A DNA stretch of 38,150 bases from a virus, in IMG/VR virus record IMGVR_UViG_3300034200_000800, positions 1-38,150 of that record. One strand, 5' to 3'. Below are positions 33,876 through 36,498 of the stretch, piece by piece (position 1 is the first letter of the stretch; each line of letters opens with the position of its first letter). Both the position numbers and the translations under genes were made by a program. Under the pieces are notes generated by a model. It was not told where the DNA came from and made no database searches. It was given only the letters and a program-made list of their open reading frames with translations.

Positions 33876-34075
33876 ACCCCGATTCAAAAGACTTCAGGGC
33901 TGGCTTTGCTGTAGGCTTTATCCATGAGGACCTGCCGTCCCACTGGCGTGCGGAAAACGAGCGCAAGGCGTCAATGCCGCATGAGGACAACCATACGCGG
34001 GATTACTGGTCTGGCTATCTTCGCGGCATGGAGTTTCGAAAACTAGATGACGACAGCGGCGATTCGACCCGCTAA
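33872..34075 (+). CDS. 67-residue hypothetical protein (GTG start)
   Basis: A charged small protein (67 aa): PDSKDFRAGFAVGFIHEDLP, WRAENERKAS, DNHTRDYWSGYLRGMEF. It has two short helix-like repeats containing RAGFAVGF and WSGYLRGM, which might be related. It begins at a GTG overlapping the previous stop (GTGA). I do not recognise the family. Confidence 0.58.
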   Translation: MNPDSKDFRAGFAVGFIHEDLPSHWRAENERKASMPHEDNHTRDYWSGYLRGMEFRKLDDDSGDSTR

Positions 34076-34100
34076 AAAACTCCCACGCGCGAACAAAACT

Positions 34101-34466
34101 ATGCATCCCCTCCTTCTATCCGCCCTCATTCAGGTCGAATCCGGTGGAAACGATCAGGCCCGTGGCCGTCACGGCGAGCTTGGCGCGCTTCAGATCAAAT
34201 CGATCATGGTTCGCGATGTGAACCGGATCATGGGGACGCACTACGCGCACCAGCAGGTAACCAACCGCGCCATCTCGATCTTCATCGCGGAAAGCTATTT
34301 CGCGCACTATGGCAAACACCTCAGCGACGAAAGTCTCGCTCGGATCTGGCAAGGTGGGCCAAAAGCCCTTAGAAGATCATCCACGCGCGCGTATGGAAAA
34401 CGGGTCATGCGAAAGCTCCGCTCGATGGATGAATTCACTGAAAAGCCCACTTTCACCGCACGGTAA
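34101..34466 (+). CDS. Lytic transglycosylase-like endolysin
   Basis: A 121-residue SLT-type muramidase domain expected to cut peptidoglycan. LLSALIQVESGGNDQA (4-20) holds the catalytic Glu (E13); GRHGELGALQIK (22-33) and the SYFAHYG and ARIWQGGP segments follow as in other phage lysozyme-like transglycosylases. No signal peptide is visible, so a holin is needed (24717-24899). I choose ATG 34101, since the longer in-frame start at 34047 overlaps the previous gene by 29 bases and adds 18 residues without conserved features. It is away from the holin and spanin genes, and among early genes, so it could also be a virion or injection enzyme. Confidence 0.8.
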   Translation: MHPLLLSALIQVESGGNDQARGRHGELGALQIKSIMVRDVNRIMGTHYAHQQVTNRAISIFIAESYFAHYGKHLSDESLARIWQGGPKALRRSSTRAYGKRVMRKLRSMDEFTEKPTFTAR

Positions 34467-34714: not shown

Positions 34715-35055
34715 TTACCGGAACGAACGGACCCTACACTGGGTACGAAATCCAAATGATCGTCGAAAAGAAATATCGGGACGACTCGTTGAAGGCTCGG
34801 AATTTATCTTTGGCCGAGTTGCTGGAAAGGCTGGAATCTGTGCGTAAACGGAATTTGGACGCAATCGCTGGCGAGTCAGCCACACGCCTCGCGCATGTGT
34901 CCGCTGCATTATCCTGCCTTGAAGACGCGCTTTTCTACGTCCGCATGTATCGGTCAGCCGATAATACAGGCGAGGGCGAAAAGCGACGCCAGGAGCTGAT
35001 CGACGACTCGGAAATGATCATCAACCTGATTCGCACCGGAGGACTCTACCCATGA
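34711..35055 (+). CDS. 114-residue hypothetical helical protein (GTG start)
   Basis: Mostly helical (114 aa): SLAELLERLESVRKRNLDAI, THVSAALSCLEDALFYVRMY-like helices (residues 59-80) and a C-terminal helix LIDDSEMIINLI. The pattern suggests a small helical bundle. It begins at a GTG overlapping the previous gene and its stop overlaps the next ATG (ATGA). No function known to me. Confidence 0.65.
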   Translation: MITGTNGPYTGYEIQMIVEKKYRDDSLKARNLSLAELLERLESVRKRNLDAIAGESATRLAHVSAALSCLEDALFYVRMYRSADNTGEGEKRRQELIDDSEMIINLIRTGGLYP

Positions 35056-35309
35056 TCCGCAATCTATTCGCCCCGCCCCGCTTTAAGGTTCAAATCAGCG
35101 GCGCGATTGGCTGGAGCGATTTGAAGGAACGGGTCGTCCGTTTCGAAACGCTCGAATACGCGACGCGCAAGGAGGCGGAAACGACAGCGCGAGAACTGAA
35201 CCCCGGCGAGTACACTCAGGGCCGCATCCGCGTCGTCCCGGTCGAAGTGCCGGAGGATTACGATGTGTATCCGGTCGTGGAGCGAGTGAGCGAAAAGCAT
35301 TCAACATGA
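35052..35309 (+). CDS. 85-residue hypothetical protein
   Basis: A small basic protein (85 aa), starting IRNLFAPPRFKVQISGAIGW, with a helix YATRKEAETTARELN and a beta end GRIRVVPVEVPEDYDVYPV. Its stop overlaps by 4 bases (ATGA) the start of the longer of the two frames that share the methyltransferase locus, which supports translation of that frame. No family known to me. Confidence 0.65.
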   Translation: MIRNLFAPPRFKVQISGAIGWSDLKERVVRFETLEYATRKEAETTARELNPGEYTQGRIRVVPVEVPEDYDVYPVVERVSEKHST

Positions 35310-36163
35310 GTGATACATGGATACTTCCAAAGCAGTTACACACCTTGGCCTATGCGCTGGATACGGAGGCATTGAGCTTGGACTTAAACGAGCAATCCCA
35401 AGTCTGCGCTCAATCGCTCTTTGTGAGGTCGAAGCCTTTGCCATTGCGAACCTGGTTGCGAAAATGGAAGCGGGACAACTGGAGCCAGCACCTGTTTGGC
35501 CGAATCTTAAAACCTTCCCTTGGCAATCGTTTCGCGGATGCGTGGATATCCTCACTGGCGGCTACCCATGCCAGCCCTTTAGCGCGGCAGGAAAACGACA
35601 AGGAGCAGACGACCCGAGACATCTCTGGCCATACATCGCAAGAGGAATTCGGATTCTTCAGCCAAGACTCTGCTTCTTTGAGAACGTCGAAGGACATATC
35701 TCGCTGGGGTTGTCCGACGTCATCGAAGACCTGGCAGGAATGGGTTATCGAACGACGTGGGGCATATTCAGCGCGTCTGAATGCGGTGCGCCTCACCAAC
35801 GCAAGCGGGTGTTCATCTTGGCCAACCGCATCGGCGCGGGATGGGAAGGATTCGCCGGGAGCATGGATGTATGCGGTGACGGATCGGAATCGGGAGGATC
35901 AGTTGGCCAGAAAGGTTTACGCGGTCGAGTTTGGCCGAGCCGTCCTAGCGGAGACAACCGATGCGAATGGGAACCACCCCGTGTCATCGACATATCGCCT
36001 GAATCCGAGATGGGTGGAGACATTGATGGGGATACCCGTTGGATGGGTTATGCCCACTGGGAATCCCTATCGGATTACGAGCGGCTATGCCACGCGCATG
36101 ACAGCCGCATCGACGAACTTCGTCTCCTCGGAAACGGTGTCGTCCCAGCTACCGCCGAGTTAG
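35306..36163 (+). CDS. Overprinted protein at the C5-methyltransferase locus
   Basis: A 285-residue protein in the frame one base shifted from the methyltransferase gene, sharing 847 bases with it. It starts by ATGA overlap with the gene before it. I recall the same kind of Ser/Trp/Arg-rich protein from other phages: RSKPLPLRTWLRKWKRDNWS followed by GRILKPS, TRDISGHTS, WQEWVIERRGAYSARLNAVR, SGCSSWPTASARDGKD (W172 P173), and LNPRWVETLMGIPVGW (232-247). These motifs are too regular for a chance frame. It may assist or modify the methyltransferase, or act alone. The reading is unusual and the biochemical function is unknown. Confidence 0.65.
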   Translation: MSDTWILPKQLHTLAYALDTEALSLDLNEQSQVCAQSLFVRSKPLPLRTWLRKWKRDNWSQHLFGRILKPSLGNRFADAWISSLAATHASPLARQENDKEQTTRDISGHTSQEEFGFFSQDSASLRTSKDISRWGCPTSSKTWQEWVIERRGAYSARLNAVRLTNASGCSSWPTASARDGKDSPGAWMYAVTDRNREDQLARKVYAVEFGRAVLAETTDANGNHPVSSTYRLNPRWVETLMGIPVGWVMPTGNPYRITSGYATRMTAASTNFVSSETVSSQLPPS

Positions 36164-36207
36164 CGTATCGAACTCTTGCGCGAGAACTTGTCGAAAATCA
36201 CGGATAA
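35317..36207 (+). CDS. DNA (cytosine-5) methyltransferase
   Basis: A 296-residue C5-methyltransferase. Motif I is LGLCAGYGGIELGLKRA (10-26), motif IV GGYPCQPFSAAGKRQG with catalytic C85, motif VI FENV (E122, 121-124), motif VIII QRKRVF (161-166), and the C-terminal RLLGNGVVPATAELAYRT is motif IX/X. It methylates cytosine in DNA, probably for escaping host restriction. The target-recognition region (about 175-265) is Gly-rich and short. The 3' part shares its DNA with the overprinted protein to 36163. The start at 35317 has no Shine-Dalgarno site; it lies 11 bases behind the overlapping gene's start. Confidence 0.9.
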   Translation: MDTSKAVTHLGLCAGYGGIELGLKRAIPSLRSIALCEVEAFAIANLVAKMEAGQLEPAPVWPNLKTFPWQSFRGCVDILTGGYPCQPFSAAGKRQGADDPRHLWPYIARGIRILQPRLCFFENVEGHISLGLSDVIEDLAGMGYRTTWGIFSASECGAPHQRKRVFILANRIGAGWEGFAGSMDVCGDGSESGGSVGQKGLRGRVWPSRPSGDNRCEWEPPRVIDISPESEMGGDIDGDTRWMGYAHWESLSDYERLCHAHDSRIDELRLLGNGVVPATAELAYRTLARELVENHG

Positions 36208-36240: not shown

Positions 36241-36498
36241 ATGTCATTTCATCGAATCGATTCTAGCGCGGTCATGGGCGAAACCGTCCGTAGAGCCGCA
36301 AAACACCTTCCGAACGCTCTACGGGCCGTTTCCGCTCCATTAAACAGCATTCTCGAATGTCGATTGAGCGATACAAACGCGTTCCAACCCTTATTCCGAA
36401 ACGGAAGCGGCACCGCCCTCAAAGGCGGGGAGCAAGCTTTCCGATTTCGGAATAAGCCTCTCCCCTTTTTTAGAAAGGGGAGGCTTATCTTTAGATGA
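36241..36498 (+). CDS. Doubtful 85-residue open frame over hairpins
   Basis: An 85-residue frame (ATG at 36241 preceded by CCAAAACC). The first 45 residues are normal in composition, but the second half is read through two large inverted repeats (36391-36455 and 36452-36488) and gives a low-quality Phe/Arg-rich end (FRFRNKPLPFFRKGRLIF). I do not recognise it. It may be a real short gene with a truncated end or just a frame across a regulatory region. Confidence 0.35.
   Translation: MSFHRIDSSAVMGETVRRAAKHLPNALRAVSAPLNSILECRLSDTNAFQPLFRNGSGTALKGGEQAFRFRNKPLPFFRKGRLIFR
36391..36488 (+). other. Two overlapping hairpins (possible RNA switch or terminator)
   Basis: Hairpin 1: TTATTCCGAAA (36391-36401) pairs perfectly with TTTCGGAATAA (36445-36455), with an inner CCGCC/GGCGG stem around CTCAAA. 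Hairpin 2: ATAAGCCT (36452-36459), a CT bulge and CCCCTTT (36462-36468) pair with AAAGGGG and AGGCTTAT (36474-36488). The arms overlap at 36452-36455, so the two compete. The tail after hairpin 2 is only CTTTAG, so a terminator would be weak. An attenuator-like or processing element is possible. Confidence 0.55.

Follow-up and report, generated by a model that had tools for sequence, protein, structure and literature searches.

Two overlapping reading frames of a viral locus probably encode the catalytic and specificity chains of one C5-cytosine methyltransferase

We propose that two overlapping genes of a viral DNA very probably encode a two-chain C5-methyltransferase of the M.EcoHK31I kind, in which the specificity chain is overprinted on the catalytic chain. 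The DNA analysed, here called the window, spans the 38150 bases of an IMG/VR virus record. The catalytic chain, alpha, is encoded on the plus strand by an ORF of 296 amino acids (35317..36207), and the proposed specificity chain, beta, by an ORF of 285 amino acids on the same strand (35306..36163), which lies in the +1 frame relative to alpha, the first base of a beta codon being the second base of an alpha codon. The two starts lie close together (35306..35319, plus strand), with the beta ATG at 35306, 11 nt upstream of the alpha ATG at 35317, and overlapping as ATGA with the TGA (35307-35309) of the preceding ORF (35052..35309). Both long ORFs and the ATGA overlap had been noticed in a preliminary description of this DNA and were found again in the sequence. 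A PHROG search with 10 other ORFs of the window gave three matches at E<=1e-5, to a DNA primase, a terminase large subunit and a baseplate or tail protein.

C5-methyltransferases are built from a large domain, which carries motifs I-VIII and X, and a small domain with the recognition region and motif IX, and the DNA lies in the cleft between them. Alpha contains motifs I-VIII including PCQ and ENV and is a C5-cytosine methyltransferase, as the preliminary description had concluded from the PCQ, ENV, QRKR and GNGVVP motifs, all of which are present. It matches phrog_363 (1.8e-50) and the Pfam family DNA_methylase (PF00145, 9.6e-32), the latter over residues 10-173 only, and the match of the alpha profile to M.HhaI covers M.HhaI residues 13-181 only. 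The solved chain 3g7u_A, a prophage methyltransferase, is matched from alpha profile position 14 to 292. An AlphaFold2 model of alpha (29 sequences) has a mean pLDDT of 66 and a pTM of 0.67, with values below 50 at residues 86-98, 182-247 and 257-271 and better ones elsewhere; it superimposes on M.HhaI with a Z of 20.5 (189 residues, rmsd 3.1, model residues 5 to 296), and its C-terminus aligns to M.HhaI residue 326. The catalytic domain is closed by motif X (LGNGVVP, 36127..36147, plus strand, alpha frame), which is assigned from this alignment, from the phase of its substitutions and from its residues G272, N273, V276 and P277, which are invariant in A2. Residues 182-247 (35860-36057) overlap most of the stretch that in the other frame codes for the target-recognition region and motif IX. 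Because the sequence matches end at motif VIII and the pLDDT falls below 50 at residues 182-247, alpha is, to judge from sequence and model, a large domain with motif X in which no small DNA-recognition domain is visible. Neither a target-recognition region nor motif IX was found alongside motifs I-VIII in alpha; motif IX is in the +1 frame.

The openness of the beta frame is unusual for its alpha sequence. It remained open in 1 of 20000 permutations of alpha's own synonymous codons and in 79 of 20000 redraws of these codons by genome codon usage, and the +2 frame holds 12 stops at the alpha locus. Viral contigs were scanned with beta, which yielded 88 relatives among 91 candidate stretches; the best 80 of these 88 were kept (L006-L085) and are 41 to 100 percent identical to the window beta, L006 and L007 being copies of the window's sequence at 100 percent. 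In 80 of 80 loci the best beta ORF is in the +1 frame relative to the best alpha ORF, a uniformity that is partly selection, as the loci were selected by beta; many are also closely related. From the alpha start to motif IX (LNPRWVETLMG) the beta frame is open in 60 of the 80 loci (L006 and L007 included), three (L080, L081, L084) have one stop at codon 103-106, and 11 have no motif IX in the +1 frame (nine loci with homopolymers, L030 and L082); the count includes two truncated contigs (L014, L062) and four loci unscored at the alpha start (L076, L077, L083, L085). When the 63 loci having motif IX were shuffled with alpha preserved, a locus acquired 4.2 stops on average, and 133 of 6300 shuffles had none. 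In a non-redundant set (<95 percent alpha identity) the frame is open to motif IX in 38 of 46 loci, has one stop in two and is without motif IX in +1 in six. Both sets were counted with a looser pattern than the first motif IX pattern, which left 29 of 117 loci unresolved. The beta frame is thus free of frequent stops in the relatives, which also bear out the statement in the preliminary description that a similar second protein recurs at this locus in other phages.

The start of beta is conserved as well. We looked for the alpha start in 78 sequences (76 of the 80 loci, C75C1, and L086, the window's own copy) and could place it in 76 of them, 75 viral loci and L086; L084 and C75C1 were the exceptions. 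In every one of these 76 (L006 and L007 included) the beta frame has an ATG 2-14 nt before the alpha start, uninterrupted by a stop, at spacings of -2 (11 sequences), -5 (24), -8 (30), -11 (10) and -14 (1), and such an ATG is present in 46 of 46 members of the non-redundant set. In C75C1 the order is apparently reversed, the beta ATG following the annotated alpha start by a few bases, as judged by eye.

Could the beta frame nevertheless be no gene at all, with its openness and apparent conservation imposed by the motifs and the codon usage of alpha? Three tests bear on this; in all of them the alpha protein is retained while its synonymous codons are redrawn or permuted. For the first, 120 random pairs were taken from the non-redundant pairs at alpha identity.45-.65 and given 30 null draws each. 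Beta identity was.406 observed against.251 in the null. With the window's codon usage, 120 of 120 pairs exceeded the largest of their 30 null draws, and with the usage of the overlap genes, in a second pair draw, 119 of 120 did; either usage was applied to all loci and was not each phage's own. By alpha codons the observed and null values were.436/.254 (codons 1-30),.553/.295 (31-60),.310/.247 (61-92),.251/.217 (93-120),.391/.215 (121-150) and.507/.282 (151-177). The near-null identity at codons 93-120, in the same gene and the same pairs, argues that the excess elsewhere is not residual silent-site ancestry. Beta residues ~65-124 have little or no conservation of their own, and what similarity they seem to show between phages is mostly a by-product of the alpha motifs, as a non-gene would have it throughout. 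All the motifs that the preliminary description had listed for the 35306 frame are present; GHTS, one of them, falls within this poorly conserved part. A flanking-ORF control, which is weak at low identity and may include wrong-frame ORFs, gave 4-fold differences for overlap and flanks of.471/.525 at.45-.55 and.178/.321 at.85-.96; our conclusions draw instead on the three tests and on the substitution phases described below.

The second test extended the comparison to 26 representatives across phages. Beta identity was above the null mean in 229 of 320 pairs, with Z above 3 in 25 pairs and below -3 in none; many of the 25 come from the window group and its neighbours or from enterobacterial and Pseudomonas phages. 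Examples are a Paenibacillus and a Pseudomonas phage (Z 5.5 at alpha identity.42) and C75C1 with a Synechococcus phage (Z 4.9 at alpha identity.36); the window itself reached Z 2.4 with the Synechococcus phage. Thermus phage P23-45, which has no +1 ORF and served as a control, contains 8 stops where 8.3 are expected, with a mean Z of -0.33 and a best listed pair at Z 1.9, and there was no excess in Pseudomonas PS-1 (mean Z -0.02) or Streptococcus CHPC1148 (0.20). Over motifs I-VIII the +1 frame contains 1 to 8 stops in 10 of the 26 representatives, so that a full-length overlap is not general.

The third test shows that the partner gene by itself forces part of the likeness between overprinted frames. 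An HMM was built from +1 ORFs taken from 15 other phage lineages; against it, 500 of 500 alpha-preserving shuffles scored, with a mean of 42.7 and a maximum of 69.0 bits, while the window beta scored 109.5 bits. Because the shuffles score too, PHROG, tblastn and HMM matches of beta were dropped as plain homology, and only the excess of beta over the shuffles was used; the match of beta to phrog_1008, a DNA methyltransferase family (2.2e-18), may likewise owe part of its score to alpha. Shuffles that score and a linker with little or no conservation of its own are what a non-gene would give, but the margin of the real beta over the highest shuffle, the upstream ATG in 75 of 75 viral loci with a placed alpha start and the behaviour of the Thermus control make this explanation hardly credible. 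Beta is a real protein-coding gene: compared across phages, its conservation exceeds the constraint exerted by the methyltransferase.

Which frame is protected can be read from the substitutions, since positions 2 and 3 of a beta codon coincide with alpha positions 3 and 1, respectively, so that the most variable position shows the protected frame. Pairs and matches in these counts are not independent, and the figures are descriptive, not probabilities. At alpha identity.85-.96 the ratio of changes at alpha position 3 to those at position 1 was 0.60 (codons 1-30), 1.40 (31-60), 5.50 (61-92), 2.50 (93-120), 0.93 (121-150) and 1.03 (151-177); for the same six bins it was 0.90, 1.16, 3.28, 1.90, 1.04 and 1.09 at identity.65-.85, and 1.36, 1.44, 1.68, 1.44, 0.96 and 1.35 at.45-.65, where the contrast is weak. 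Together with the beta identities relative to the null, these ratios delimit a first dual-coded stretch, alpha codons 1-60 with the motif I region and the N-terminal domain of beta (35317..35496, plus strand, with edges that are those of the analysis bins), an alpha-dominated stretch, codons 61-120 with the PCQ loop and the beta linker, where beta identity is close to the null (35497..35676, plus strand), and a second dual-coded stretch, codons 121-177 from ENV to motif VIII with the C-terminal core of beta (35677..35847, plus strand).

Beyond motif VIII the frames change roles. The target-recognition-like module of beta (WPTASARD and following residues, 35819..35998, plus strand) was analysed by frame-neutral blastn between the target-recognition regions of 75 loci, with matches >97 percent or <60 bases excluded, as an earlier count had chosen its matches by beta similarity; the window copies L007 and L086 were left out here and for motif IX. 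Differences at beta positions 1/2/3 were.093/.096/.239 at 80-85 percent identity (124 matches) and.036/.037/.118 at 90-97 percent (323 matches). This concentration at beta position 3 indicates that beta is constrained there and that alpha is a passenger, and the pLDDT of alpha is low in this part. Motif IX (LNPRWVETLMGIPVGW, 35999..36046, plus strand, beta frame only) behaves in the same way: among the 50 loci (34 distinct) of the window group, beta positions 1/2/3 differ by.108/.041/.381. On its 3' side the values become.109/.361/.197; the most variable position is now alpha position 3, so alpha is again the constrained frame. The frames therefore alternate along the locus, from dual to alpha, to dual, to beta over the target-recognition and motif IX region, and back to alpha at motif X. 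That beta and not alpha is the conserved frame over the target-recognition and motif IX region is a further point against a non-coding beta frame.

What does beta contain? The motif IX assignment is made by motif, place and profile, not by structure. The beta alignment was compared by hhalign with the C-terminal halves of five phage methyltransferases (Jarcob, Tweety, Baddon, Rabbitrun and ReT1v-2, with motif IX in the frame of motifs I-VIII in all except Jarcob) and aligned with their motif IX region at a probability of 83 and an E of 8.9e-6. Motif IX is short, and BLASTP of the window beta against Tweety gp72 reached an E of 0.03 only. Beta had no Pfam or NCBIfam match and no PDB sequence relative at E<=1, residues 1-64 gave no match to a family of known function in Pfam, PHROG and NCBIfam searches, and an AlphaFold2 model of beta alone (34-sequence alignment) was uninformative, with a pLDDT of 38 and a pTM of 0.20. 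Tweety gp72 carries motifs I-VIII, an LLPTPSAASG module and motifs IX and X, all in one frame. In Jarcob, gp69 stops short of motif VIII, and a second frame provides motif VIII, three modules and motifs IX and X; this second chain is 70 percent identical to Tweety gp72 over the aligned part. From the one-frame arrangement of Tweety and the likeness of its split counterpart in Jarcob, the beta-frame parts are most plausibly the half of an ordinary C5-methyltransferase that alpha is missing. Beta appears to supply the small domain that alpha lacks, and its WPTPxAxD module, by position and substitution pattern, is a candidate for target recognition.

A beta that is real but serves a separate function, as a regulator, an anti-restriction protein or otherwise, would fit the lack of a known family for residues 1-64. 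It would also fit L080, L081 and L084, in which the stop falls in the linker that joins the two conserved parts of beta and is followed, two codons on, by an ATG; the two parts thus look separable, and the N-terminal part is an ORF of its own. However, beta holds the very domain that alpha is without, and the Jarcob second chain joins motifs VIII, IX and X with the modules, the same parts that Tweety has in one chain. We consider a separate function improbable and retain the reading of beta as a methyltransferase subunit. The preliminary description had suggested a real overprinted gene that might assist methylation or restrict host DNA; the former suggestion is supported by a target-recognition region and motif IX without counterpart in alpha, and nothing was found in support of the latter.

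The target-recognition regions of the relatives differ in the number of their modules. We counted about six in C75C1 and three in Jarcob, partly by eye, and blastp for repeats inside these regions listed none. The window beta has one WPTASARD-type module and thus not the more than one recognition unit of a multispecific enzyme. An identical WPTASARDGKDSPGAWMYAVTDRNREDQLAR stretch (alignment gaps omitted) occurs in L006 and L018, whose alphas are.58 identical over motifs I-VIII. The putative recognition units are exchangeable in the relatives, where the region changes in modular fashion. Some relatives also contain homopolymers of 9-10 C or G in this region, which could be taken as a sign that a single chain is made by programmed frameshifting from alpha, after motifs I-VIII, into the beta frame. 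The list of loci with such a tract does not include the window's sequence, two shifts would be required, one to add motif IX and one to return for motif X, and beta has a conserved start and N-terminal domain of its own. Frameshifting is accordingly a very improbable alternative to two separately started chains.

Related layouts, as far as they can be recognized by motif, occur in phages of varied hosts. We hand-picked 18 phages out of the 60 that were listed among 1000 records matching alpha. The pattern placed motif IX in the +1 frame in seven (Synechococcus Ssp-JY39, Paenibacillus Pahemo, Vibrio 1.003.O, Bacteroides BS-TP4, Klebsiella ST13-OXA48phi12.5, Edwardsiella eiAU-183 and Pseudomonas phita81A), and it was seen there by eye in two more (Pseudomonas PS-1 and, weakly, Nodularia kac68v161). 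Three have motif IX in the alpha frame (Gordonia Baddon and Rabbitrun, Rhodococcus ReT1v-2), with a +1 ORF that still has P-T-P-type modules, Tweety has it in its single chain, and by these patterns none was found in Lactococcus D6867, Streptococcus CHPC1148, Thermus P23-45, Arthrobacter 1191A and Coprococcus NatCom. The sample of 117 loci, which includes three window copies, is biased, as most were fetched by a beta query; motif IX is in +1 and motif X in frame 0 in 76 of them, both are in +1 in two (Jarcob and L033), and motif IX is in +2 and motif X in +1 in 10, next to the 29 without a pattern assignment. The second ORF is annotated in the records of fTaEco01 and Jarcob and unannotated in those of C75C1, RcAqua and Hades. 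One scan of bacterial genome contigs with the beta alignment found one locus, in a Verrucomicrobia MAG, and plasmid searches using two phage betas returned 13 and 3 records.

We envisage that alpha would form the large domain, with cofactor binding, the catalytic PCQ loop, motifs I-VIII and the C-terminal motif X, while beta would contribute the target-recognition module and motif IX of the small domain, preceded by its conserved core. The extra N-terminal domain of beta probably holds beta to alpha. Together the two chains would make up an active, site-specific cytosine-methylating enzyme, with beta setting or sharing the target sequence, and the methylation would most likely shield the phage DNA from host restriction. 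The title of a paper on lactococcal phage methyltransferases reports such a use of methylation for those enzymes (PMC4190342).

Two products of one overlapping stretch are apparently partners in one enzyme here, and for each region there is evidence as to which frame is under constraint. Whether such relay coding is common in phage orphan C5-methyltransferases, with frames taking turns, an overprinted and swappable specificity subunit, exchangeable and tandem-amplified modules and, in some lineages, possible on/off switching by homopolymers, seems to us evenly balanced. If it is common, many annotated phage DNA methylases would stand in databases without half of the enzyme. The two-chain reading, if true, would explain phage proteins that are filed as separate DNA methyltransferases or left unannotated, and methylases of this kind assayed without the second frame are predicted to look inactive. 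It also makes a testable proposal about the seat of sequence specificity and its exchange between phages.

Several known systems share parts of this arrangement. M.SPR, a multispecific Bacillus phage methyltransferase, is a single chain with tandem recognition units between motifs VIII and IX, to which the repeated W/L.TP modules of C75C1 and Jarcob are comparable; the window has one module. Mycobacteriophage Tweety gp72 resembles the window in its LPTPSAASG-kind module and motifs IX and X, and differs from it as a single chain in a single frame. PHROG_1008 (beta) and PHROG_363 (alpha) are separate DNA methyltransferase families, and the descriptions shown omit a two-chain link. A putative Mte8-like protein of coliphage fTaEco01 (L003 1393-2085) is encoded within a cytosine methyltransferase gene, in the same relative frame, and contains LNPAHSRWLMGYPQEW; unlike the window beta, its ORF starts inside alpha, and the record says putative methyltransferase only. 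Mte8 is named, with no function given, in a phage paper (PMC5582158). No prior description of overprinted phage methyltransferases was found in searches of the open-access literature.

The closest parallel is M.EcoHK31I, a YGGCCR C5-methyltransferase of which both chains are needed in vitro. Its beta has 176 amino acids and lies inside alpha, and the beta ORF, reportedly described by Lee et al. in 1995, is said to overlap alpha in another frame. The window shares the overlap in a different frame, +1 in its case; unlike in M.EcoHK31I, its beta of 285 amino acids starts 11 nt upstream, is not wholly inside alpha and has the extra N-terminal domain. M.AquI and M.EcoHK31I are named as natural two-chain C5-methyltransferases in a study according to which the larger chain of M.EcoHK31I has motifs I-VIII and X and the smaller polypeptide only motif IX (PMC3404938), the same division as in the window; a second source terms the enzyme naturally split (PMC3439449). 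The former study places the predicted recognition domain of M.EcoHK31I in the larger subunit (PMC3404938), whereas the recognition region of the window maps to beta, evolving as beta coding sequence. It also describes motifs IX and X together in the smaller chain of M.AquI (PMC3404938); the window is like M.AquI in forming a C5-methyltransferase from two polypeptides and unlike it in that motif X is in alpha. Relative to M.EcoHK31I, the new elements of the window locus would be the conserved N-terminal domain of beta, the near-complete overlap, the occurrence of related layouts across phages with varied hosts, a recognition region carried by beta and the modular change of this region.

Homopolymer tracts of nine or ten bases were found in the target-recognition region (TRD) of several loci related to beta, the ORF overprinted on the methyltransferase chain alpha. 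These are a C10 tract in L031, L032, L034, L035, L043, L046 and L076, a G10 tract in L040, L061 and L068, a G9 tract in L034 and L036, and a C9 tract in L040. All ten of the loci that carry motif IX in the third frame and motif X in the beta frame contain a 10-base tract, and at the 9-base tracts of L034, L036 and L040 the frame is unshifted. Such C or G tracts possibly reflect phase variation, or else an assembly error.

Beta is also found divided. A stop codon, one codon and an ATG (2562-2570 in L080, 2692-2700 in L081 and 312-320 in L084) split it into two ORFs, one N-terminal and one C-terminal, and each retains similarity to the beta of the window.

In phages of Lactococcus, Streptococcus and Coprococcus a +1 ORF also overlies the methyltransferase (L121, 1595-2089; L125, 1652-2074; L135, 1511-2077). 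No motif IX was found in these three ORFs and their excess conservation is weak; close to their ends they carry CSLSDILE..V..KYFLS or KYYLS. Stretches resembling phrog_1008, the PHROG methyltransferase family matched by beta, recur with a spacing of about 8 kb on a single contig of a Verrucomicrobia MAG (L087; L136-L138), which is possibly a phage contig.

In the window, the gene run immediately upstream of the methyltransferase includes a small ORF (34047-34466) matching an SLT transglycosylase (1.5e-6). Downstream of alpha lie two inverted repeats, one at 36280-36332 (17-nt arms, 88 percent complementarity) and one at 36452-36488 (12-nt arms, 92 percent complementarity). The loop of the latter contains TTTTTT, and this repeat may be a terminator-like hairpin.

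A separate repeat search of the TRD regions listed no repeats within them. Partly by eye, we recognized approximately six W/L.TP repeat modules in the beta frame of C75C1 (L001, 1492-2871) and about three in that of Jarcob (L004, 1498-2484), a sequence arrangement that suggests multispecific recognition.
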